Below are positions 12,836 to 22,550 of a DNA stretch of 23,385 nt, piece after piece. A model generated the notes under the pieces. That model was given only the letters and a program-made list of their open reading frames with translations, was not told the origin of the DNA and did not search any database. Numbering within the stretch: position 1 is the stretch's first letter; every line of letters starts with the position of its first letter. Position numbers and translations under genes: made by a program. Origin of the DNA: a virus; IMG/VR virus record IMGVR_UViG_3300032224_000746, positions 1 through 23,385 of that record, one strand, 5' to 3'.

Positions 12836-13232
12836 TTTGTATAAACGTCACGGCGTTCGGCACATCGTCGCCCTTCTCGTGCTTTTCCATCTGGAAACGG
12901 AGCGCGAGGAGTTCTTTGATGGTGCTGGAGCGCTGTGTCGCCTCCCGTGTTAGTTGCCCACCCGTAATCTCGTCGGCGAGTTGGGGGAGCAGGGCTTTGA
13001 GTTGGAGTGACAAGAAGATGTCGATGTCCTTCTCAAGCACGGGCTTTTCTTGACCACCGAGGACCCCAGACAGGTAGTTCCAGTCCTCGCGGGACAGGAA
13101 CGGAGCCAGTTTGTCTTTGAGCGCGTCCACGGAGACCGAATCGGTCTTTGGCTTGGTCCGCGCCCCCTTGGGTCGTCCTCGGTTTGCCGCGCCCACCGAG
13201 GCAGTCGCGGCACGCTTGGTTGTATCGGACAT
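12663..13232 (-). CDS. Terminase small subunit (putative)
   Basis: The product is 189 residues. A basic N-terminus (ANRGRPKGARTKPKTDSV, an AT-hook-like GRPKG) is followed by helical sequence (VDALKDKLAPFLSREDWNYL, DIFLSLQLKALLPQLADEI) and an acidic tail. Small terminase subunits recognise phage DNA and stimulate the large subunit; they vary greatly in sequence. The assignment rests on location immediately upstream of and overlapping terL, the basic DNA-binding-like N-terminus and helical core. It is the first leftward gene after the divergent control region. The ribosome-binding site is weak (GTAGAG). Confidence 0.7.
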   Translation of the reverse strand: MSDTTKRAATASVGAANRGRPKGARTKPKTDSVSVDALKDKLAPFLSREDWNYLSGVLGGQEKPVLEKDIDIFLSLQLKALLPQLADEITGGQLTREATQRSSTIKELLALRFQMEKHEKGDDVPNAVTFIQNVFESRGIDTARLATLAGAVGSAIEGISVALPGTPDGDQGDADETGTVSDSLPERQE

Positions 13233-13671
13233 CTGTGTGTCTCTACTTTCGTAAACGTTTTTTTAAAATTTTGACTCCCCCATCAGTTGTACCAGTCAGG
13301 CTGGTCAGCCAGGGGATAGCCGTAATTTTTTTTTAGACTTTCTTCCAGTTTAGCCTGGTAAGAATAGTCTTCCTACTCTATATGGGATTTAGGGTACTGA
13401 TTCGTCCTGATATTAAACATAGAGTATGACTTTTACCAAGGAGCACCCCAGTTTACCCTGTTTCGGCGTTTTTTTCATTTTCCTGCCAGTGCCTGCCAGT
13501 CTTTCTGGATTCTGCCAGTTTACCTAGGGTATGGGTAAAAAAGTTAGAAAACTGCATGTATTTCCTCACGCTACCAGCCCGAGATAAGGAAATAGGCGAT
13601 GGAGCGTATTTGAGGGTGGATTTTAGTGTGATTTTTCGCGGATTCTGCCCCTCGTGCGTGGGATTCTCTCT
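13233..13671. promoter_or_regulatory. Divergent intergenic region with CCAGTTTA / CTGCCAGT repeats
   Basis: No gene is seen here. It contains T runs near 13258-13272 and 13324-13334 and a set of related short repeats: CCAGTTTA followed by pyrimidine-rich sequence at 13345, 13448 and 13515, CTGCCAGT at 13483, 13493 and 13512, and the palindrome ACCAG-TCAGG-CTGGT at 13291-13305. TACTCTAT (13374-13381) is inverted at 13419-13426. This is AT-richer than either side and lies where leftward and rightward transcription diverge, so it probably holds promoters and operators, or a replication origin with iterons. I could not point to a convincing -35/-10 pair. Confidence 0.55.
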
Positions 13672-13703
13672 CTACGGGACGGGACGCGAAGCGTCCGCCG
13701 TAG
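13672..13703 (+). promoter_or_regulatory. Leader hairpin before the first rightward gene
   Basis: CTACGG and CCGTAG enclose an inner stem GGACGC-GAA-GCGTCC. It is followed by GGATACGGAAGGGG and the ATG, resembling the leader hairpin and AAGGGG site of several downstream genes, although element A itself is absent here. Confidence 0.6.
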
Positions 13704-13723
13704 GATACGGAAGGGGTACGGAT

Positions 13724-14512
13724 ATGATCGCAACGGATACGCGCACAATCGCAACGCTAGACGCGGCGGACGCGCTAGCCGTGCTAGCCGCTAGCGTATC
13801 GGCTAGCGCGCGCCTCGCCCTGCTAGGCACGGGGGACGCGGACGATATCGCGGCGGAAGCCTACGCCGCTTGGCTTACGGCGGGAAGCCCCGCCGCGTGG
13901 ACTATCGCGGATGCGATCCGCGCGGGCGTGGCTTCGCTTCGCCCTAGCCGCGAGGGGCTAACGGATGATGAGGGCGGGGACTACGGGTTAGCCGTCTACG
14001 CATCCGCTAGCACGGCGGACGGGCTTACAATCGGGGACGCTATGGATGCGATCCGCGAAGACGCTACGGGCTACGCCGTACGCACGGACGGCGTGCGGGG
14101 CTTCGCGGATGGCGCGCGCTTCGCTATCGTCTACGCGGCGGACGGGTACGATACGGACGGCGCAACCTATACGGACGCTAGCGGGGCTAGCGTCTACGGG
14201 ATGGACGCGATCCTAGCGGCGCGATCCGCCGCGCTTCGCGAGGATACGGCGGGGGAGCACGGGCAAGCCGCCGCCGCGCGAGGGGCTAAGAATCAAGCCG
14301 CTAGCGCGGGGACGGATGCCGCCGTAGCCGCCGCGTATCGGGCGGATGGCGGCGGCAAGGGCTACGCGGCACGGATCGCCGTAGCCCTCGGATGGCTTAG
14401 CGCGGACGCTACGGACGCGCAACGCCTCGCCGCTATGAATCGCGTACGGGTAGCCGTATCGCGGATGAATCGCCGCACGGACGGCGAGGATACGCATAGC
14501 GCGCGGGACTAG
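13724..14512 (+). CDS. Ala/Asp-rich protein, unknown; weak sigma-factor-like pattern
   Basis: The product is 262 residues from the ATG at 13724, chosen because GGAAGGGG lies upstream, just as before other rightward genes; longer in-frame starts lack this. About a third of residues are Ala, there is no Cys and very little Lys. Two stretches recall ECF-type sigma factors: GDADDIAAEAYAAWL followed by AAWTIADAIRAGVASLR (region 2-like), and near the C-terminus ARIAVALGWL then RVRVAVSRMNRR (region 4-like helix-turn-helix). The similarity is weak and judged by eye. Base use is extreme: many CTAG and GCTAGC words and almost no CAG or CTG. It leads the rightward array, fitting a regulator, but function is not established. 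Confidence 0.72.
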   Translation: MIATDTRTIATLDAADALAVLAASVSASARLALLGTGDADDIAAEAYAAWLTAGSPAAWTIADAIRAGVASLRPSREGLTDDEGGDYGLAVYASASTADGLTIGDAMDAIREDATGYAVRTDGVRGFADGARFAIVYAADGYDTDGATYTDASGASVYGMDAILAARSAALREDTAGEHGQAAAARGAKNQAASAGTDAAVAAAYRADGGGKGYAARIAVALGWLSADATDAQRLAAMNRVRVAVSRMNRRTDGEDTHSARD

Positions 14513-14763
14513 CCCTAGCGGGGAGGGGGACGCGCCCCCTCCCCTAGCGTAGCCGTGAAGCCCTTACCCGTAGCGGGTAGGGGCTTCATAGCGTCTAGGG
14601 GCTAGCGCGTAGCCGCCGCACGGATGGGCTAGCGTAGGGCTAGGAAGCCCGTAGGGACGCGATACGGGACGCGGCGCGGGATTGTAGCCCCTAGCCCTAG
14701 CGCGGGGCGTAGCGGGGCGCATACGCGGACGCGCCGCACGGCTTCGCATAATCCGCCGCATCC
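14513..14763 (+). terminator. Tandem strong hairpins and CTAG-rich noncoding stretch
   Basis: Right after the stop, GGGGAGGGGG-ACGCG-CCCCCTCCCC (14520-14544) forms a perfect 10-bp stem, flanked by CTAGCG on each side. A second stem at 14557-14587 pairs GAAGCCC...TACCCG with CGGGTA...GGGCTTC. No U-tract follows either. The remaining 175 bases hold no gene that I can support; they share the CTAG-rich, CAG/CTG-free composition of the preceding gene. Confidence 0.55.
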
Positions 14764-14851
14764 AAGTGTGTAATGATCGGGGATGGGTAGCAAGCCCGTA
14801 ATGATGTCGGTGGATAGTGGAGGGGCGGGATATACCCGCTCCCCGATAGTG
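14764..14851 (+). repeat. Cassette leader 1: elements B and A plus leader hairpin
   Basis: Element B (AAGTGTGTAATG) is at 14764-14775 and element A at 14792-14818 with central triplet ATG; their starts are 28 bases apart. A leader hairpin (GGGGCGGG with CCCGCTCCCC, 14822-14844) is bounded by TAGTG at 14815 and 14847. AAGGGG and the start codon follow. Confidence 0.85.
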
Positions 14852-14862
14852 TAAGGGGTGTA

Positions 14863-15051
14863 ATGATGAGCAAGGGTGATAAGGCGTTCGTGATCGCTAG
14901 CGTAGTGATCGGCGCAGCAGTAGGCACACACTTCGCGGATATTGTCGGCGGGATTGTCGGCGGATTCGCAGGGCTAGGCGCAGCGTGCGTAGCCTACGCA
15001 ATCGGGGATGAAGTCAATATGCGACTGGCGGAGCATTACCGCAAGGCGTAA
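14863..15051 (+). CDS. Small membrane-associated Gly-rich protein, unknown
   Basis: The product is 62 residues. Residues about 8-50 are hydrophobic and Gly/Ala-rich (FVIASVVIGAAVGTHFADIV, then GGIVGGFAGLGAACVAYAIG), enough for one or two short membrane helices with glycine-zipper spacing. The C-terminus is charged. Two adjacent ATGs (14863, 14866) follow AAGGGG; either may be used. It could be a small membrane-acting protein, for instance a superinfection-exclusion or holin-like peptide, but nothing specific supports that. Confidence 0.7.
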   Translation: MMSKGDKAFVIASVVIGAAVGTHFADIVGGIVGGFAGLGAACVAYAIGDEVNMRLAEHYRKA

Positions 15052-15059
15052 GGGTAGAC

Positions 15060-15093
15060 GGGACGGGTAGGGGTAGCATCCCCCTCCCGTCCC
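15060..15093 (+). terminator. GC-rich hairpin after gene
   Basis: GGGACGGG and GGGG pair with CCCC and CCCGTCCC around a six-base loop, a 12-bp stem with small bulges that starts 8 bases after the stop codon. No U-tract follows. Confidence 0.5.
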
Positions 15094-15105
15094 GCTACGC
15101 ATACC

Positions 15106-15159
15106 AAGTGTGTAATGGTCTAGGTTGGGGCTAAGCCCGTAATGATGTCGGTGGATAGT
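15106..15159 (+). repeat. Cassette leader 2: elements B and A with no gene following
   Basis: B is at 15106-15117 and A at 15133-15159 (triplet ATG), starts 27 bases apart. No ribosome-binding site and start codon follow; instead a strong hairpin comes 28 bases later and then the next leader. The stretch 15052-15363 between genes therefore contains two leaders and two hairpins but no supported gene. Confidence 0.82.
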
Positions 15160-15187
15160 GAGCCGCAATAAGAGCGGCGGGGCAAGG

Positions 15188-15216
15188 GTCTAGGGGGATA
15201 CGGATGCCCCCTAGAC
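15188..15216 (+). terminator. Perfect 10-bp hairpin in the gene-less cassette
   Basis: GTCTAGGGGG (15188-15197) pairs perfectly with CCCCCTAGAC (15207-15216) around a nine-base loop. It occupies the position of the hairpin that normally follows a gene, but here it directly follows element A. Confidence 0.5.
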
Positions 15217-15232
15217 GCACCCTATCCCGCAC

Positions 15233-15349
15233 CATTACGCACTTGCTTGCGATTCCGAACGCGCCTAAGTGTGTAATGATCGCGGATGGGGTGAAAGCCC
15301 GTAATGATGTCGGTGGATAGTGAGGGGTGGACGATCCATCCCCGTAGTG
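15233..15349 (+). repeat. Cassette leader 3: inverted arm, B, A and leader hairpin
   Basis: The inverted arm CATTACGCACTT (15233-15244) faces B (15267-15278) across 22 bases. A is at 15295-15321 (triplet ATG), 28 bases after B. The leader hairpin GGGGTGGA/TCCATCCCC (15324-15343, one bulged base) lies between TAGTG at 15318 and 15345. Confidence 0.85.
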
Positions 15350-15363
15350 CGAAGGGGTACGAT

Positions 15364-15705
15364 ATGGGACTACTCGCAACGATCCGCGCTAAGGGCGGCG
15401 CAACGCTAGACGCGGCGACGCTTACGGACGCGGGACTATCGGACGGGTACGCCGTAGGGATGGCGCAGGGAACCGCCCTGATGCTACCAGACGACGCGGA
15501 TGATACTACGCTAGGGCTAGCCCTTAGCCTGATCGCAGGGGCGTACGGATGCGCCTTCGTGGGGGCTTGGGTAGCGGATGACGGGGTACACCTAGACCCC
15601 GTAGCCGTAGTCCCTACCCTAGCGGACGCTATGGACGCGGGGCGACGCTACCAGCAGCGCGCCGTGTACGATATCGCAGGGGCGACGGAGCACGCCGTAG
15701 CCTAA
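15364..15705 (+). CDS. Hypothetical protein, unknown
   Basis: The product is 113 residues from the ATG at 15364, placed after GAAGGGGTACGAT, almost the same upstream sequence as the 13724 gene. It is Ala/Asp/Gly-rich, with LADAMDAGRRYQQRAVYDI near the C-terminus and two internal Ala/Leu-rich helices (LGLALSLIAGAYGCAFVGAW). I recognise no family. An upstream in-frame ATG inside element A would add 20 residues that translate the repeat and hairpin, so it is not preferred. Codon use is CTA- and ACG-rich as in the first rightward gene. Confidence 0.72.
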   Translation: MGLLATIRAKGGATLDAATLTDAGLSDGYAVGMAQGTALMLPDDADDTTLGLALSLIAGAYGCAFVGAWVADDGVHLDPVAVVPTLADAMDAGRRYQQRAVYDIAGATEHAVA

Positions 15706-15706
15706 G

Positions 15707-15737
15707 GGGGACGGGGGGCGGGCGCAAGCCCGTCCCC
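15707..15737 (+). terminator. GC-rich hairpin after gene
   Basis: GGGGACGGG (15707-15715) pairs perfectly with CCCGTCCCC (15729-15737), beginning right after the stop codon. There is no U-tract. Confidence 0.5.
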
Positions 15738-15747
15738 TATCCCGTAC

Positions 15748-15864
15748 CATTACACGCTTGTTTTGGTGTGCCTTGCGCGTGGAAGTGTGTAATGATTAGG
15801 GATGGGCAACAAGCCAGTAATGTTCTCGGTGGATAGTGAGGGGTGGGCTTCCATCCCCGTAGTG
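15748..15864 (+). repeat. Cassette leader 4: inverted arm, B, A and leader hairpin
   Basis: The inverted arm CATTACACGCTT is at 15748-15759, B at 15783-15794, and A at 15811-15837 (variant AAGCCAGTAATG, triplet TTC), B to A 28 bases. The hairpin GGGGTGG...CCATCCCC (15840-15858) lies between TAGTG copies at 15834 and 15860. Confidence 0.85.
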
Positions 15865-15876
15865 TAGGGGTGAAGT

Positions 15877-16020
15877 ATGTACGCAGAATCGGATAAGTTT
15901 ATTGCGGATTGTGAAGTGTGCGCGATTCTAGGCATCCGCTCCCTCGCGCGATTCTTGGGCGGCGGGCGTTGGCTATGCGATCCGTGCTCGGTGGACTTCA
16001 TCAAGGCGCGTAGGGGATAG
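15877..16020 (+). CDS. Small zinc-ribbon-like protein
   Basis: The product is 47 residues with two CxxC pairs: CEVC (residues 12-15) and CDPC (residues 34-37), 18 residues apart, a standard zinc-ribbon spacing. AGGGGTGAAGT precedes the ATG. The rest is short and basic at the C-terminus (FIKARRG). Probably a nucleic-acid or protein-binding knuckle; no specific family recognised. Confidence 0.72.
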   Translation: MYAESDKFIADCEVCAILGIRSLARFLGGGRWLCDPCSVDFIKARRG

Positions 16021-16027
16021 CCCTCAT

Positions 16028-16145
16028 CATTACACACTTCGGCGCGGTCGGCGCGCTTACCAAGTGTGTAATGGTGAAGGTTGGGCGACAAGCCCGTAAT
16101 GTTCTCGGTGGATAGTGGAGGAGCAGACAAACTGCTCCCGTAGTG
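16028..16145 (+). repeat. Cassette leader 5: perfect inverted B pair, A and leader hairpin
   Basis: CATTACACACTT (16028-16039) and AAGTGTGTAATG (16062-16073) are a perfect 12-bp inverted repeat with a 22-base loop that itself contains repeated GGCGCG. A is at 16090-16116 (triplet TTC), 28 bases after B. The hairpin GGAGCAG-ACAAA-CTGCTCC (16120-16138, including one A shared with the loop) lies between TAGTG at 16113 and 16141. Confidence 0.88.
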
Positions 16146-16158
16146 TAAGGGGTGCGAT

Positions 16159-16386
16159 ATGGTTAGGCTTATGATCCAAGTATTCGCGGAAACCACATAC
16201 GAGCGGGCGTTCTACGAGGTAGAGATTGCGGCGCGTACCGAGAAGGGCGTATTCCGCGAGGCGAAGAAACTCGCAACCGCCCTAGCCGCAACGCTGGAAG
16301 GGCGCACAATCGCAACCGAGGTGATGCTTACGGAAAACGCGCAACGCGCCGCGTATGGGACGGTCATCCGTAGCAACCACCGCTAG
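16159..16386 (+). CDS. Hypothetical protein, unknown
   Basis: The product is 75 residues. It starts with beta-type sequence (RLMIQVFAETTYERAFYEVEI), followed by a helix (VFREAKKLATALAATLEG) and a short C-terminal strand-like part. AAGGGGTGCGAT precedes the ATG. A small alpha/beta domain is likely. I recognise no family, and there is no cysteine, signal peptide or membrane segment. Confidence 0.72.
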   Translation: MVRLMIQVFAETTYERAFYEVEIAARTEKGVFREAKKLATALAATLEGRTIATEVMLTENAQRAAYGTVIRSNHR

Positions 16387-16392
16387 GACTTC

Positions 16393-16428
16393 GGTAGGGG
16401 GCGGGGTCGTATCCCTCCGTCCCCTACC
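16393..16428 (+). terminator. GC-rich hairpin after gene
   Basis: GGTAGGGG (16393-16400) pairs with CCCCTACC (16421-16428), with further inner CGG/CCG pairing. It begins 6 bases after the stop codon and directly abuts the following inverted B arm. Confidence 0.5.
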
Positions 16429-16545
16429 ATTACACGCTTCCGTGCGTTCCGATACGCGGGCAAGTGTGTAATGGTGAAGGATAGGGGTAAAGCCCGTAAT
16501 GTTCTCGGTGGATAGTGGAGGGACGGACAATCCGCCCCCCTAGTG
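16428..16545 (+). repeat. Cassette leader 6: inverted arm, B, A and leader hairpin
   Basis: The inverted arm CATTACACGCTT is at 16428-16439, B at 16462-16473 (22-base loop), and A at 16490-16516 (triplet TTC), 28 bases after B. The hairpin GGGACGGA...TCCGCCCC (16520-16538) lies between TAGTG at 16513 and 16541. Confidence 0.86.
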
Positions 16546-16557
16546 TGAGGTGTAGCA

Positions 16558-16884
16558 ATGGGAAGAGTAAGCAATAGAAACGCGGATGCGCATATCCGCA
16601 ACGCGATCCCGTTCGTAGGGTCTAACTTCTACGGGGTAGACGGATCGCATAGCCGATACGGATCGGCGCGATGGTATCTATCGGGCGCGGCGGAGGAGCG
16701 ATTCCATAAGGATCAGGCAGCGGGGAAGATTCATTACTCGGTCTGGTCTTATAGCACGCCTATCGCGTGGCTTGTGGAGGGCGAGGGCTGGGTTATCCCG
16801 CCCGTCAAGTACTCAATGAGCACGGGGCGACACCAGTCCTATGTGCGCCGCGCTACGGCGGGGCAAGCAATCGCAACGGCGTAG
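16558..16884 (+). CDS. Conserved phage protein with SYxTPIAW motif, unknown function
   Basis: The product is 108 residues. The segment VWSYSTPIAWLVEGEGWVIP followed by VKYSMSTGRHQSYVRRA matches a pattern I know from uncharacterised phage and plasmid proteins, in which a TPIAW strand, a W-x-P turn and S-x-T-x-RHQ are conserved; I recall these as DUF proteins without known activity. The N-terminal half is basic and includes FVGSNFYGVDG. GAGGTGTAGCA precedes the ATG. Possibly a small nucleic-acid-related domain, but the role is unknown. Confidence 0.8.
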   Translation: MGRVSNRNADAHIRNAIPFVGSNFYGVDGSHSRYGSARWYLSGAAEERFHKDQAAGKIHYSVWSYSTPIAWLVEGEGWVIPPVKYSMSTGRHQSYVRRATAGQAIATA

Positions 16885-16891
16885 GCGGTAC

Positions 16892-16919
16892 GGGGGGCGG
16901 GCGAGGTAGCCCGTCCCCC
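16892..16919 (+). terminator. GC-rich hairpin after gene with G-U wobble
   Basis: GGGGG-G-CGGGC pairs with GCCCG-T-CCCCC, an 11-bp stem containing one G-U pair that is stable only in the rightward transcript. It starts 7 bases after the stop. Confidence 0.5.
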
Positions 16920-16930
16920 TATACCCCTAC

Positions 16931-17100
16931 CATTACACACTTCCGAACTGCGCCGAACTACCCAAGTGTGTAATGATGCTGGATGTGCCTAAGTGTGTAA
17001 TGGTTGGGGATGACCCGCAAGCCCGTAATGTTCTCGGTGGATAGTGGAAGGACAAGCAACAATGCTAGACACCAAGCCCGTAATGGACTCGGTGGATAGT
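16931..17100 (+). repeat. Cassette leaders 7 and 8: B-B-A plus a second A in tandem
   Basis: The inverted arm CATTACACACTT (16931-16942) is followed by B at 16964-16975, a second B at 16991-17002, and A at 17019-17045 (triplet TTC). Starts are spaced 27 and 28 bases. A further A copy (triplet GAC) follows at 17074-17100. This is the densest element cluster in the window and begins a 679-base stretch (16885-17563) without a firmly supported gene. Confidence 0.85.
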
Positions 17101-17217
17101 GGAGGGGCAGACCGAATCCTAGGAATCGGTACGGACTTCCAATGGTGAGGCTCTTGGACGAGCGAGCAGTTATGCCGCAGCCATAAGTGCGGGTATAAGA
17201 GAAGCAAAGGGCGATGA
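17062..17217 (+). pseudogene. Possible small reading frame interrupted by TGA, ending in a Cys/His knuckle
   Basis: An ATG at 17062 preceded by GGAAGG opens 28 codons, which read through element A copy 8, then meets TGA at 17146-17148. The same frame continues for 22 codons (GSWTSEQLCRSHKCGYKRSKGR given in parts: GSWTSEQLC, RSHKCGYKRSKGR) to a TGA at 17215. The second part looks protein-like, with C-R-S-H-K-C, but has no start codon of its own. It may be a decayed small gene into which an element was copied. A chance frame is equally possible. Confidence 0.3.
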
Positions 17218-17297
17218 CCGCTAAACCAATGTATCGGAGGAGCGGTAGGGCGCGAGGAGGGCAACCCCGACGGGGGCAAACCCGAATCAACCCGAAT

Positions 17298-17333
17298 AAG
17301 AGGGGGGCTACCCGACGGGGTAGTCCTCCTCTT
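17298..17333 (+). terminator. Very long hairpin (16 bp) with two G-U pairs
   Basis: AAGAGGGGGGCTACCC (17298-17313) pairs with GGGTAGTCCTCCTCTT (17318-17333), including two G-U wobbles that favour the rightward RNA. It is the hairpin closing the cluster before the next leader. Confidence 0.55.
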
Positions 17334-17349
17334 GCTATCCCCGTCCTAC

Positions 17350-17439
17350 CATTACGGGCTTGTTTTTTATCCGATCAAGTGTGTAATGATGAGGGTTGCG
17401 CCGAAATAACCCAAGCCAGTAATGATCTCGGTGGATAGC
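17350..17439 (+). repeat. Cassette leader 9: inverted arm matching A, then B and A
   Basis: Here the left arm is CATTACGGGCTT (17350-17361), the exact complement of the A start AAGCCCGTAATG rather than of B. B is at 17377-17388 and A at 17413-17439 (variant AAGCCAGTAATG, triplet ATC, ends GGATAGC). Only a doubtful 20-codon frame follows. Confidence 0.82.
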
Positions 17440-17469
17440 AGAGGGGCGACTCCAATAAGGAGCAGAGAG

Positions 17470-17532
17470 ATGGGGGCTATACGCCCTCCCGCCGCAGGGG
17501 GTAAAACTGCCGTCCCTCTACTAAGCCAGTAA
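17470..17532 (+). CDS. Doubtful 20-residue reading frame
   Basis: AGGAG lies seven bases before an ATG that opens 20 codons (MGAIRPPAAGGKTAVPLLSQ) and stops with the TAA inside the next element A. The frame also contains a GGGGGC/GCCC hairpin. Position after a leader and stop inside the next one fit the local cassette pattern, but the length allows no firm call. Confidence 0.25.
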   Translation: MGAIRPPAAGGKTAVPLLSQ

Positions 17533-17549
17533 TGGTATCGGTGGATAGT
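17523..17549 (+). repeat. Element A copy 10 (compact leader)
   Basis: Variant AAGCCAGTAATG, triplet GTA, then TCGGTGGATAGT. AGGAGG follows directly, without a leader hairpin, and the ATG is at 17564. Confidence 0.85.
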
Positions 17550-17563
17550 GAGGAGGTGTACCA

Positions 17564-17752
17564 ATGGCAGTAGGCGTGAACTTGACTGACCTGATTCGCT
17601 ATGAGCAGGGCGAGATGACCGAGGAGGAGGTCGTGAACTTCTTCCAAGACCTCTACGACTCTGGGGTATGGCATCAACTACAAGGGCATTACCAGCGCAC
17701 GATGAACGATCTCGTTCAGGCGGGACTGGTATCGGTGTTCGGGAGCAACTAA
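17564..17752 (+). CDS. Conserved small phage protein (DUF7417-like), unknown function
   Basis: The product is 62 residues. DLIRYEQGEMTEEEVVNFFQ, then LYDSGVWHQLQGHYQR and a hydrophobic end (LVQAGLVSVFG) match a small family common in phages of Actinobacteria, recognised by YExGExxEEExxxxFQxLxDxGxxWQLQGxYxR. I associate it with DUF7417 from memory. It is helical, acidic and probably cytosolic. GAGGAGGTG precedes the ATG. Biochemical role unknown. Confidence 0.85.
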   Translation: MAVGVNLTDLIRYEQGEMTEEEVVNFFQDLYDSGVWHQLQGHYQRTMNDLVQAGLVSVFGSN

Positions 17753-17783
17753 CTACACGGGGGACGCACTACCCCCGACTTCT

Positions 17784-17815
17784 GGGACGGCAGGGACGCA
17801 CCCCCCTGTCGTCCC
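17784..17815 (+). terminator. 12-bp hairpin after gene
   Basis: GGGACGGCAGGG (17784-17795) pairs with CCCTGTCGTCCC (17804-17815), one G-U wobble, in the rightward transcript. No U-tract. Confidence 0.5.
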
Positions 17816-17828
17816 TACTACCATAGGC

Positions 17829-17990
17829 AAGTGTGTAATGGTTGGGGATGGGTGGCAAGTGTGTAATGTTGTGGGTTGGGTTGGCAGAACTGGGCAGGAT
17901 TGGGGGCGGATGGTAAAGAAAACCTAACCTAACCATAATCATTACACACATAATCGCACGGAGCGCGTTGGTAGGATGTAGCGTGTAATG
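17829..17990 (+). repeat. Two B elements and a long G-U-rich inverted repeat in a gene-free stretch
   Basis: B copies at 17829-17840 and 17857-17868 are 28 bases apart. The sequence from 17857 (GTGTGTAATG...GGTTGGGTTGG) is inverted at about 17922-17949 (CCTAACCTAACC...CATTACACAC), pairing with two G-U wobbles. A further GCGTGTAATG is at 17981-17990. A degenerate A start (AAGCCTGTAATG) is at 18013. The interval 17753-18238 holds these repeats and leaders 11 and 12, and no gene that I can support. Confidence 0.7.
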
Positions 17991-18065
17991 GTAGAGGTGT
18001 ATAGATAGGAGCAAGCCTGTAATGATCTGGGCTAATCCGTGCGTAGAACACCTGTTCTAGCCGTC

Positions 18066-18092
18066 AAGCCCGTAATGATATCGGTGGATAGT
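18066..18092 (+). repeat. Element A copy 11, no gene following
   Basis: The triplet is ATA. The downstream 83 bases contain AGGAG but no usable start codon before the next element at 18176. Confidence 0.85.
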
Positions 18093-18175
18093 AGGAGATA
18101 GCGACATAGAGGAAGCGGGTATAGACCCCCCTATATATCGCCATATTTCTGCGGTATTTCGGCGCGATTATTGGG

Positions 18176-18229
18176 AAGCCCGTAATGGTGTCGGTGGATA
18201 GTGAGGGGATCGGTGTGATCCCCATAGTG
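18176..18229 (+). repeat. Element A copy 12 with perfect leader hairpin
   Basis: A is at 18176-18202 (triplet GTG). GGGGATC (18205-18211) pairs perfectly with GATCCCC (18217-18223) between TAGTG copies at 18199 and 18225. GAGGTG and the ATG follow. Confidence 0.88.
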
Positions 18230-18238
18230 GAGGTGGGT

Positions 18239-18475
18239 ATGGCTGAGCAGGAGTTTATCAACATTACGCCTAGCAGCGACGGCTACGCAATGATGGCGGC
18301 GGTGTTCGCTGAGGATATTCTCGGCAACATCCGCAAGAGTGATCGCGAGCGTATGACCTCGCTCTTGGGATCGGTTATCAACATTTCGGCGCACTTGGGC
18401 AACGCAGCAGCGCAGGACGACGCGGACGCGATCAAAGCGTACGAGTGGCTTGTGGAGCGGTTCCCCGCAAAGTAA
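18239..18475 (+). CDS. Hypothetical protein, unknown
   Basis: The product is 78 residues from the ATG at 18239, after GGAGGTGGGT. The protein is largely helical (GYAMMAAVFAEDILGNIRKS, then LLGSVINISAHLGNAAAQDD) and ends AYEWLVERFPAK. No family recognised. The stop codon TAA overlaps the first two bases of the next element A. An in-frame ATG within element A would add 18 residues read through the hairpin and is not preferred. Confidence 0.75.
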   Translation: MAEQEFINITPSSDGYAMMAAVFAEDILGNIRKSDRERMTSLLGSVINISAHLGNAAAQDDADAIKAYEWLVERFPAK

Positions 18476-18526
18476 GCCCGTAATGGTGTCGGTGGATAGT
18501 AGGAAGCCCCCGTTGGGGGAGTAGTG
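18474..18526 (+). repeat. Element A copy 13 with leader hairpin; overlaps preceding stop codon
   Basis: A is at 18474-18500 (triplet GTG); its first two bases complete the TAA of the gene before it. CCCCC-GTT-GGGGG (18507-18519) forms the leader hairpin, followed by TAGTG and GAGGTG. Confidence 0.86.
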
Positions 18527-18535
18527 GAGGTGTGT

Positions 18536-18907
18536 ATGGCGTACTACAAGGGGAATACATCATTACCAGAGCATTGGGGAACGATTGAGCACACGGATCA
18601 CGCAGGGGTAGTTCGGCGCACTAGGCGGTGGATGGCGTACGAGGGTGCGGATACCCTTGATGACTTCCGTCAAGCGTGGAAGCGCACCCGTGTCTGGAAG
18701 TGCGGGATCGCTCATCACGATGCGTATCGGATTGAGCCTACGCCGTGCGCGGTGTGCGGCGTAATGATTACTGAGGAAGTCGGGCAAGACAACCGACCCT
18801 TCGTTGAGTGGCGACGCGGGTGGGCAGACTTGCGGGTCAAACATTACAAGTGCGCGTGGGGTCAGACTCTCAACGCGGTGGTGAACCTAAGCAGGGAACT
18901 AGCCTAA
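18536..18907 (+). CDS. Hypothetical protein with CxxC motif, unknown
   Basis: The product is 123 residues from the ATG at 18536, after GGAGGTGTGT. It contains CAVC (around residues 79-82) and a later HYKCAWG, which may form a metal site with the HH pair earlier (IAHHDAYRI). The N-terminal half is aromatic and charged (RRTRRWMAYEGADTLDDF, QAWKRTRVWKC). I recognise no family. Its stop TAA overlaps the next element A. Confidence 0.74.
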   Translation: MAYYKGNTSLPEHWGTIEHTDHAGVVRRTRRWMAYEGADTLDDFRQAWKRTRVWKCGIAHHDAYRIEPTPCAVCGVMITEEVGQDNRPFVEWRRGWADLRVKHYKCAWGQTLNAVVNLSRELA

Positions 18908-18932
18908 GCCCGTAATGGTGTCGGTGGATAGT
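18906..18932 (+). repeat. Element A copy 14 (compact)
   Basis: The triplet is GTG. The element starts inside the stop codon of the previous gene; AGGAGGTG and the ATG at 18945 follow without a hairpin. Confidence 0.88.
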
Positions 18933-19173: not shown

Positions 19174-19258
19174 CATTACGCGCTTCGGCGCGTGTGGAAG
19201 TGTGTAATGGTAAAGGATGGGCAGGAAAAACAAGCCCGTAATGATGTCGGTGGATAGT
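19174..19258 (+). repeat. Cassette leader 15: inverted arm, B and A
   Basis: The inverted arm CATTACGCGCTT is at 19174-19185, B at 19198-19209 (12-base loop), and A at 19232-19258 (triplet ATG), 34 bases after B. The stop-proximal sequence TAACCGCAATCATTAC recurs at 20883. Confidence 0.85.
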
Positions 19259-19271
19259 GAGGAGGTGGAGT

Positions 19272-19364
19272 ATGAAGGTTCGGTGCGATGAGTGTGGTCG
19301 GGTCTTTGACCTGAGCAACAATGAGCAAGCGCAGGAGTGGGCATACGGACACGATTGCGAGTAA
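19272..19364 (+). CDS. Tiny C2HC zinc-finger-like protein
   Basis: The product is 30 residues: CDEC (residues 5-8) and a C-terminal H-x-C (GHDCE) form a plausible CCHC-type zinc knuckle. GAGGAGGTGGAGT precedes the ATG. The TAA stop overlaps the next element A, so this gene is a complete minimal cassette from one element to the next. Confidence 0.75.
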   Translation: MKVRCDECGRVFDLSNNEQAQEWAYGHDCE

Positions 19365-19389
19365 GCCCGTAATGATATCGGTGGATAGT
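19363..19389 (+). repeat. Element A copy 16 (compact)
   Basis: The triplet is ATA. The element overlaps the previous stop codon by two bases, and AGGAGGTGGCT leads straight into the ATG at 19401. Confidence 0.88.
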
Positions 19390-19818: not shown

Positions 19819-19845
19819 AAGCCCGTAATGGTGTCGGTGGATAGC
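19819..19845 (+). repeat. Element A copy 17 (compact)
   Basis: The triplet is GTG and the element ends GGATAGC. It follows the previous TAA after one base. AGAGGAGGTGGAGT leads to the ATG at 19860. Confidence 0.86.
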
Positions 19846-20892: not shown

Positions 20893-21003
20893 CATTACTC
20901 ACTTGTCCAACGCAAGTAGAAGTGTGTAATGTTCTAGGTTGCCTATAAGAAAATCAAGCCCGTAATGTTGTCGGTGGATAGTGGGAGAACAATCTCCCTA
21001 GTA
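20893..21003 (+). repeat. Cassette leader 18: inverted arm, B, A and leader hairpin
   Basis: The inverted arm CATTACTCACTT is at 20893-20904, B at 20920-20931, and A at 20956-20982 (triplet TTG). The leader hairpin GGGAGA-ACAA-TCTCCC (20983-20998) lies between TAGTG (20979) and TAGTA (20999). Confidence 0.85.
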
Positions 21004-21014
21004 TGGAGGTGGGT

Positions 21015-21317
21015 ATGTCTATGGCGAAACATTGGAACAAGGTGGAGGCGTGGCTCCACGACGCTAAGGGTATCGCGTTTGACGATTGCCACAAGATTTA
21101 TGTCTTGATGGACGAAGAGCAGATGGCTTTGATGAAGGAGTACGGGTATGACCCGCTGATTTCTTCCGACACAATGACTATTGACGAGATGCTCAGCACG
21201 CTGAAACTTTGGTACAAGAAGTCGTGTATGTTGCGATTTATCAACGCGGTGAGCACGAATCACGAAGACCCGAACTTGGGCTTTGTTGATCTGATCCCGC
21301 AAGGTGCTGACGAGTAA
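21015..21317 (+). CDS. Conserved phage protein (EYGYDPLI type), unknown function
   Basis: The product is 100 residues from the ATG at 21015 after GGAGGTGGGT; a second ATG two codons later is also possible. Recognisable conserved segments are LMDEEQMALMKEYGYDPLI, LSTLKLWYKKSCMLRFINAV and LGFVDLIPQG, a pattern I have seen in uncharacterised proteins of actinobacteriophages. It is acidic, helical and cytosolic. The stop TAA overlaps the next element A. Confidence 0.8.
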   Translation: MSMAKHWNKVEAWLHDAKGIAFDDCHKIYVLMDEEQMALMKEYGYDPLISSDTMTIDEMLSTLKLWYKKSCMLRFINAVSTNHEDPNLGFVDLIPQGADE

Positions 21318-21342
21318 GCCCGTAATGATGTCGGTGGATAGT
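21316..21342 (+). repeat. Element A copy 19 (compact)
   Basis: The triplet is ATG. It starts within the preceding TAA and is followed by GAGGAGGTGGTT and the ATG at 21355. Confidence 0.88.
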
Positions 21343-21829: not shown

Positions 21830-22088
21830 GGTAGTAAGTGGTCGCAACTTGACGACCATTGTGCTCAACGAAACGGAGGTTCGGTATCTGCGGGATGTGC
21901 TCTCCGATGTGGAGATTCGGTCGCGGCAAGAAGATTCGTTTGCGGCTACGCAGATTGCCGTGCTCTACGAACTATGGACGGCTGTGTCTGACGCAGAGCA
22001 GTTTGAGCCAGAGGAAGACCTTCTGACTGCGGCTGGTGAGGCGTATCACTTCCGCGAGCCAGACTTGGCTGAGCCAGACGGCAAGTAA
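21822..22088 (+). CDS. Hypothetical acidic protein, unknown
   Basis: The product is 88 residues. TIVLNETEVRYLRDVLSDVE is a helix-type segment also seen in other small phage proteins, and the C-terminus is acidic and unstructured-looking (REPDLAEPDGK). AAGGAGG lies nine bases before the ATG. It overlaps the previous gene by 8 bases, and its TAA stop overlaps the next element A. Confidence 0.74.
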   Translation: MAEVVSGRNLTTIVLNETEVRYLRDVLSDVEIRSRQEDSFAATQIAVLYELWTAVSDAEQFEPEEDLLTAAGEAYHFREPDLAEPDGK

Positions 22089-22113
22089 GCCCGTAATGGT
22101 GTCGGTGGATAGT
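22087..22113 (+). repeat. Element A copy 20 (compact)
   Basis: The triplet is GTG. It overlaps the previous stop by two bases; AGAGGAGGTAGT leads into the ATG at 22126. Confidence 0.88.
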
Positions 22114-22523: not shown

Positions 22524-22550
22524 AAGCCCGTAATGGGTTCGGTGGATAGT
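22524..22550 (+). repeat. Element A copy 21 (compact)
   Basis: The triplet is GGT, the most divergent in the set. It begins one base after the preceding TAG, and AGGAGGTGGAGTT leads to the ATG at 22564. Confidence 0.86.

Follow-up and report, generated by a model that had tools for sequence, protein, structure and literature searches.

The 23,385-nt stretch analysed here (the window; positions 1 to 23,385 of IMG/VR record IMGVR_UViG_3300032224_000746) is a 23.4-kb fragment, called W below, of an uncultured tailed phage, and its early region carries 21 copies of a 27-bp element, A, often preceded by a shorter related element, B. Judging from its position at the starts of genes and non-coding RNAs, A is probably a promoter. 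On balance, and with less assurance, we favour the wider reading that A and B form a phage promoter array which has evolved together with a sigma-like factor, the candidate being the product of the gene at 13724-14512 that directly precedes the array. Our analysis is best read as describing an array that works like a phage sigma regulon, its protein being no more than a possible member of the sigma-70 family. The relatives used for comparison are two close loci of IMG/VR, L010 and L011, whose terminase TerL is 98% identical to that of the window, and a wider group, L012-L025, with TerL identities of 67-79%.

Elements A and B

Element B consists of AAGTGTGTAATG-RTNNNGGWTGGG and element A of AAGCCCGTAATG-NNN-TCGGTGGATAGT (short form AAGCCCGTAATGNNNTCGGTGGATAGT). 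AAG-NNN-GTAATG-N5-GG is the skeleton common to both, in agreement with the initial annotation, which had taken them for two versions of one unit. The elements and their placement are directly established (Table 1). The exact A pattern occurs 21 times in the window and not once in shuffled sequences, and all 21 copies lie on the + strand, confined to the early region. B is present in 13 exact forward copies and in 7-8 inverted copies with up to two mismatches, and AAGTGTGTAATG at two or fewer mismatches gives 25 matches against 1.3 expected. The interval 14764-17868, to which the annotation had been confined, does hold the elements, but the array continues past it and spans 14.76-22.55 kb. A reading of A as a coding mini-ORF (ATG NNN TCG GTG GAT AGT) was ruled out, there being no synonymous-site variation across the 21 copies.

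The B-to-A start distances previously given for seven leaders are exact, namely 28 bp at 14764/14792, 15267/15295, 15783/15811, 16062/16090, 16462/16490 and 16991/17019 and 27 bp at 15106/15133, as are the B-to-B spacings at 16964/16991 (27 bp) and 17829/17857 (28 bp). Nine pairs of GTAATG stand 27-28 bp apart where 0.24 would be expected under random placement; the spacing is not random-like, but neither does it follow one strict period. At 17377/17413, 19198/19232 and 20920/20956 the B-A start distances are 36, 34 and 36 bp, and for 10 of the 21 A copies there is no B inside 60 bp, so that the leaders show a preferred spacing and not, as had been proposed for each of them, a strict tandem of 28-base units. 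The usual leader comprises one A, often with one B (once two) upstream at the preferred distance.

Across the relatives the typical B-A spacing is, phage by phage, 26, 27-28, 29 or 36-37 bp, with 30-33 and 39-45 nearly empty. The pooled distances fall into classes of 26-28, 34-38 and 46-50 bp with hardly any between, in steps of roughly one helical turn that are only suggestive because many of the pooled leaders are homologous. Spacings of this kind, which would keep the sites on one face of the DNA, might be expected if the candidate were a MotA-like activator that binds the cores of A and B and recruits host RNA polymerase (RNAP) with a host sigma factor to a weak -10 inside A. Most copies of A in every phage end in an xAxxxT-like hexamer, and the candidate has a C-terminal helix-turn-helix (HTH), as an activator would. 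We nevertheless regard this explanation as quite unlikely, since ten A copies stand without B, the N-terminal part of the candidate, beyond the HTH, resembles sigma region 2, and the start implied by the leader hairpins misfits a -10 at the final hexamer.

Inverted copies of B

In seven leaders an inverted B is followed by a forward B with 12-23 bp between them. Five such pairs lie 21-23 bp apart at gene ends (15233-15278, 15748-15794, 16028-16073, 16428-16473 and 16931-16975). Downstream of genes, long RNA hairpins could arise from them and might act as transcription stops or RNase III sites; weak miRNA-like Rfam matches at 16408-16493 reflect only such a hairpin. A second conserved non-coding stretch, at 17750-18185 (84% in L010 and 74% in L011), holds a B-B pair, an inverted B, degenerate copies and two A copies with no clear gene, and could be an RNA or an origin.

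Placement of element A

At tight gene junctions A begins at the preceding stop codon and a Shine-Dalgarno sequence follows 0-3 nt past its last base, and at wide junctions a hairpin begins 0-5 nt past A, followed by a second Shine-Dalgarno. Hairpins of 20-35 nt separate A from the Shine-Dalgarno in many leaders, and in most leaders of W, L010, L011, L014, L018 and L020 A is followed in this way, by a Shine-Dalgarno or by a hairpin whose arms vary from leader to leader with their complementarity kept. A lies after terminator-like hairpins and directly 5' of 5' hairpins and of a non-coding RNA, which argues for a promoter rather than for an operator only. This directly established abutment to Shine-Dalgarnos, hairpins and the RNA, with A always in forward orientation, points to A as a transcription-start element and not as a translation signal or a recombination site.

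The non-coding RNA, 235 nt without apparent ORF at 17101-17335, follows immediately 3' of the A copy at 17074-17100, and an RNA of this family stands directly behind the phage's own A in six of six phages (W, L010:5544-5777(-), L011:3353-3585(-), L014:1192-1419(-), L018:5631-5859(-) and L020:5447-5671(-)). Its DNA is 73-88% identical, while several early proteins are only 40-60% alike. A structure is supported by its alignment: for 12 base pairs, roughly half of which lie in the terminal hairpin, one or more sequences have both partners replaced. W, L010 and L011 have different A elements but share an RNA that is conserved right from the first base past A, and the change from one to the other marks where promoter gives way to transcript. 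Searches of the window and its relatives against Rfam gave no match above threshold, for this RNA included. At 15133-15244, the roughly 110 nt that begin with A also hold two hairpins and an inverted B but no ORF, and may give a very short RNA.

A repeat next to start codons might instead act in the RNA for translation initiation, a role proposed for the start-associated sequences of Cluster K mycobacteriophages (SAS/ESAS). These have a similar layout, with a start-codon repeat, an upstream inverted-repeat pair in about half of the cases and a subcluster-specific consensus (PMC3203893), and ESAS contains putative promoters (PMC3203893, PMC11373665). We consider this explanation very unlikely for A, which heads both the non-coding RNA and the leader at 15133, neither with an ORF, against a purely translational role, and which is parted from the Shine-Dalgarnos and start codons by hairpins in many leaders. 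The sequences also differ: the 13-bp SAS consensus GGGATAGGAGCCC gives three matches with two mismatches each, none of them in A.

A start 7 nt past the last hexamer would lose the hairpins of L014 and L020 as well as the Shine-Dalgarnos of the tight junctions, so that transcription should start no further downstream than the end of A. The A copies that have no B show no conserved -35 upstream, and a scan of the early region for host sigma-70 promoters gave two matches, against 5.4 by chance, with none at the leaders. The promoters of a T7-like single-subunit phage RNA polymerase, with a recognition block, a TATA-like melting site and a G start, would also be consistent with a TAAT...TATAG-GGAG layout, that is, a single phage-specific block with the start directly past ATA. 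For a polymerase gene we could draw on the 83-kb record IMGVR_UViG_3300027608_000021 (loci L018, L020 and L031-L033), in which two related units stand in tandem with terminases 55.3 kb apart, so that the full gene set of one unit is visible. No polymerase was seen among the larger non-structural ORFs scanned in this terminase-to-terminase stretch of 55 kb, and the T7 promoter consensus had no match. PF00940 had no match in 14 records either, a result that does not show absence, as the controls were silent too. T7-like promoters seem highly improbable here. The two units of the 83-kb record carry different promoter classes, and the record may represent tandem prophages, a two-phage concatemer or a chimeric assembly.

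Concerted change of the elements and the candidate factor among relatives

Orthologous leaders of L010 and L011 have the B-A arrangement of W with an A tail that is different yet uniform in each genome (TCGGTGGATAGT in W, NGGGTTGATAGT in L010, TGGTGTATAKAGT in L011); per genome there are 21 copies of TCGGTGGATA in W, 23 of GGGTTGAT in L010 and 16 of GGTGTATA in L011. In the wider group the core has changed too, with motif classes GTTAGGGTTTAGGGTATA in L014/L020 and GTGAAATGATNTCGGCTAGAG in L018. A is GTTAGGNTTNAGGG-TATAWGGT and B is GTTAGGNTYTAGGG-TCAG in L014, L019 and L020, and they are GTGAAATGATNTCGGCTAGAGGGT and GTGAAATGNTNNTGGC in L017 and L018. In the distant L022, A is GTAACG...CACTAAACC and B is GTAACG...CAC[GT]GAC, spaced at exactly 29 bp in three of three leaders. 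B is without the 3' block of A in every phage compared. Because every relative has its own version, the exact A pattern of W is found in IMG/VR in no contig besides the window's own.

This concerted change is directly established, and the sequences are best read as the replacement of all copies within a genome together, which points to a trans-acting factor. Recurrence of the A/B grammar in other sequences is what is expected of a multi-site array for one such factor. In this respect the earlier proposal of a multi-site operator holds, but operator is probably too weak a term, as a promoter fits the placement of A.

The candidate co-varies with the motif class. Where the class is equal the candidate is 78-92% identical (78-91% among L014, L019 and L020, and 92% between L017 and L018), and where it differs the identity is 33-70%. 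L018 and L020, with TerL 93% and the neighbour gene 83% identical, have completely different motifs and candidates only 43% identical, and W, L010 and L011, with TerL at 98-99%, have three A versions and candidates at 55-70%. As a control, a CI-like HTH protein found in three relatives (the window fragment ends short of that region) keeps 78% identity and a nearly unchanged recognition helix between L014-type and L018-type records.

Genome-wide co-change of sites and a DNA-binding protein is also known for the stoperators of Cluster A mycobacteriophages, which are repressor sites (PMC6550527). A and B might be the asymmetric sites at which a phage repressor blocks or modulates transcription of each early gene. 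Many one-orientation sites in short intergenic gaps, with a phage-specific consensus that co-varies with the binding protein, are described for stoperators (PMC6550527), and the array here shows this pattern. The inverted B copies and the B-B pair without A at 17829/17857 do look operator-like, and the CI-like HTH gene of the three relatives would provide a repressor. However, this protein, the only one of its kind found, does not seem to track the motif, as seen from its identity between the two classes, and six of seven records have no integrase. Stoperators lie mostly away from promoters and lack the base-exact link that A has to 5' hairpins, Shine-Dalgarnos and the start of an RNA. The stoperator consensus of the L5 type in Cluster A is the 13-bp GGTGGMTGTCAAG. 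It is absent from the window, with one match at two mismatches against 1.07 expected, although other subclusters have another consensus. Altogether, a stoperator-like array seems unlikely.

The candidate sigma-like factor

In every phage the array is preceded by one early gene, which is divergent from the terminase genes. The 1200 nt upstream of the end of this gene are free of elements in six of seven phages, and there the array starts 79-260 nt past the stop codon of the gene; the exception is L022, in which the candidate ortholog is doubtful. The family alignment shows 'ADxEDxAQEA' near the N-terminus and an HTH at the C-terminus. In profile-profile comparison with 20 extracytoplasmic function (ECF) sigmas, the N-terminal profile scored 25.3 against a maximum of 17.7 in 150 column shuffles, with about 20 columns aligned, and the C-terminal profile 16.2 against 14.6. 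The sole match of PF04542 in the 83-kb record lies inside the candidate gene, at an E of 0.014 that falls short of the cut-off.

For the AlphaFold2 model of the L020 ortholog, the Foldseek list consists mostly of sigma factors, none at E below 0.3. On re-alignment, residues 1-60 of this model (pLDDT about 60) superpose on sigma-28 region 2 (Z 7.1, rmsd 2.5, 60 aa) and align also to the SigE N-terminal domain and SigA domain 2, and residues 152-207 superpose on sigma region 4 (9m9e_F, 46 aa, rmsd 2.5). Re-alignment of a second model, of the L018 ortholog, ranked T4 gp55 second (Z 4.3, 64 aa) and sigma L eleventh, values that helical proteins can reach by chance.

Several observations weigh against a promoter array read by this protein. 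Sequence searches with the candidate against Pfam, PHROG and PDB sequences found nothing at a usable threshold, and the region 4 family PF08281 has no match in it either. Both structural models are poor (pLDDT 60 and pTM 0.33 for L020, 64 and 0.49 for L018), with Foldseek E values of 0.3 or worse, and the Foldseek list shown for the L018 ortholog has no sigma factor in it, although families beyond that list may still match. Furthermore, the candidate is not uniquely fast in its divergence, as ORFs 6945 and 14863 are about as divergent. As for A itself, the final hexamer, GATAGT or TATGGT, resembles a -10 box (xAxxxT) and would allow a more ordinary start position, and the block exceeds the length that a typical -10 element needs.

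Comparison with known phage sigma systems

By our comparison, the closest established precedent is gp36 of phiEco32, a phage sigma for host RNAP, whose promoter is the single block tAATGTAtA with starts 6-8 bp downstream (PMC8948821). Like A, it is one block with a TAATG core and no -35, and by the same distance the start in A would fall at GATAGT. Unlike the array described here, which has about 21 putative early promoters with tandem B, phiEco32 has six promoters for middle and late genes; the candidate, unlike gp36, seems to have a C-terminal HTH, and the two have no sequence match. The late promoters of phage 7-11, GTAAtg-(16)-aCTA, are read by the divergent sigma SaPh711_gp47 (PMC8948821). 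Here too a GTAATG element lies upstream in a phage-sigma promoter, and a related phage with a divergent sigma uses another promoter, but A has no aCTA 16 nt downstream of GTAATG and the shared GTAATG is likely a coincidence. The late sigma of T4, gp55, which came up in the re-alignment of the L018 model, is a minimal sigma that reads single one-block TATAAATA promoters. T4 late promoters need, in addition, the sliding clamp and gp33.

Proposed mechanism

In the mechanism that we propose, A would act by itself as a phage promoter of some 27 bp, read as a single block with no separate -35. It would be used about 21 times, with one copy for each gene or small operon and further copies for non-coding RNAs. 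The candidate gene, as the first early gene, would be expressed from a host-type promoter before the array turns on; none was recognised in 13200-13800. Its product would join the host core RNAP as a sigma-like subunit, and the holoenzyme would open A at the NANGNT-GG core. We infer that the candidate is a working sigma and that, with the start some 6-8 bp further down, near the GATAGT end of A, a transcript would carry either a protective hairpin or the Shine-Dalgarno itself at its very 5' end. B, as a copy of the recognition core without the 3' start segment, would serve as an auxiliary or tandem site upstream at the preferred distance, where it may hold a second holoenzyme or aid its loading. 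An inverted B, often just past the preceding gene, and the next B would form an RNA hairpin with a possible part in ending upstream transcripts.

Genome context

The terminase, portal and major head and tail genes of the window occupy the - strand at 2.6-13.2 kb, and small early genes the + strand from 13.7 kb. A DNA search of 50,697 phage records gave no match to the structural region. Among isolated phages, terminase relatives are all below 30% and there is no match to the candidate protein (13724-14512) or to the non-coding RNA at 17101-17335, and the terminase has nothing closer in GTDB genomes than one 25% relative.

The early region is mosaic between relatives, with the gene order mostly kept between close ones. 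The mosaic pattern, and the packing of each gene between repeats, would be consistent with an integron-like cassette array in which A and B serve as exchange sites for small genes, and a recombination array had been one suggestion of the initial annotation. This did not hold up: the tyrosine integrase family PF00589 is absent from the window and from the records of five relatives, which are partly fragments (the control was found in 14 of 14), with only the distant G008 having one, and A is strictly oriented and tied to the starts of genes and RNAs in an early region whose order is largely kept. Exchange sites are the most improbable of the explanations considered here.

At 13560-14760, CTAG occurs 21 times against 3.6 predicted from base composition (about six times more frequent), whereas it is under-represented in the structural half (21 seen, 52 predicted); the G+C content is 67% against 51%. 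A MoxR-type AAA ATPase and a VWA-domain protein are adjacent in the early region of relatives (L033:10221-13389 (-) and L030:4672-7801 (-)), and these neighbours resemble chelatase-like pairs.

Table 1. Candidate factor gene, A and B elements and non-coding RNA in window coordinates
Feature	Position	Strand	Remark
Candidate factor gene, 262 aa, sigma-like	13724..14512	+	first early gene; divergent from small terminase gene; no A/B upstream
B (12-bp head)	14764..14775	+	
A	14792..14818	+	leader of ORF 14863
B	15106..15117	+	
A	15133..15159	+	then hairpins and inverted B, no ORF (short RNA?)
Inverted B	15233..15244	-	1 mismatch
B	15267..15278	+	
A	15295..15321	+	leader of ORF 15367
Inverted B	15748..15759	-	1 mismatch
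B	15783..15794	+	
A	15811..15837	+	leader of ORF about 15877
Inverted B	16028..16039	-	exact
B	16062..16073	+	
A	16090..16116	+	leader of ORF 16159
Inverted B	16428..16439	-	1 mismatch
B	16462..16473	+	
A	16490..16516	+	leader of ORF 16558
Inverted B	16931..16942	-	exact
B	16964..16975	+	tandem first (27 bp)
B	16991..17002	+	tandem second
A	17019..17045	+	
A	17074..17100	+	immediately 5' of conserved non-coding RNA
Conserved structured non-coding RNA	17101..17335	+	G+C-rich hairpin at end; abuts each phage's own A
B	17377..17388	+	36 bp from A
A	17413..17439	+	
A	17523..17549	+	leader of ORF 17564
B	17829..17840	+	first of tandem pair, no A nearby
B	17857..17868	+	second of that pair (28 bp)
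Inverted B	17940..17951	-	1 mismatch
A	18066..18092	+	
A	18176..18202	+	leader of ORF 18240
A	18474..18500	+	leader of ORF 18536
A	18906..18932	+	leader of ORF 18945; Shine-Dalgarno immediately 3'
Inverted B	19174..19185	-	2 mismatches
B	19198..19209	+	34 bp from A
A	19232..19258	+	leader of ORF 19272
A	19363..19389	+	leader of ORF 19401
A	19819..19845	+	leader of ORF 19860
Inverted B	20893..20904	-	1 mismatch
B	20920..20931	+	36 bp from A
A	20956..20982	+	leader of ORF 21015
A	21316..21342	+	leader of ORF 21355
A	22087..22113	+	leader of ORF 22126
A	22524..22550	+	leader of ORF 22564

Conclusions

More tentatively than for the array itself, we suggest that the candidates may be phage sigma factors of a family that has gone unrecognised and diverges very fast. 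Each member would be matched to up to about twenty single-block promoters of its own, replaced genome-wide in step with it and often paired with a non-initiating B. Regulatory evolution has long posed the question of how a specificity factor and the whole set of its sites can change together. In these phages, terminases are 93-99% identical and yet the site sets differ (roughly 10-23 copies, at least five sets), each with its own version of the protein, so that exchange of factors and promoters between relatives in vitro can test the co-change. If true, these phages would offer, on genomes that are otherwise nearly alike, a natural set of sigma-promoter pairs orthogonal to one another, which would supply mutually insulated promoter-factor pairs and reveal a sigma-like family that current profile libraries have missed.

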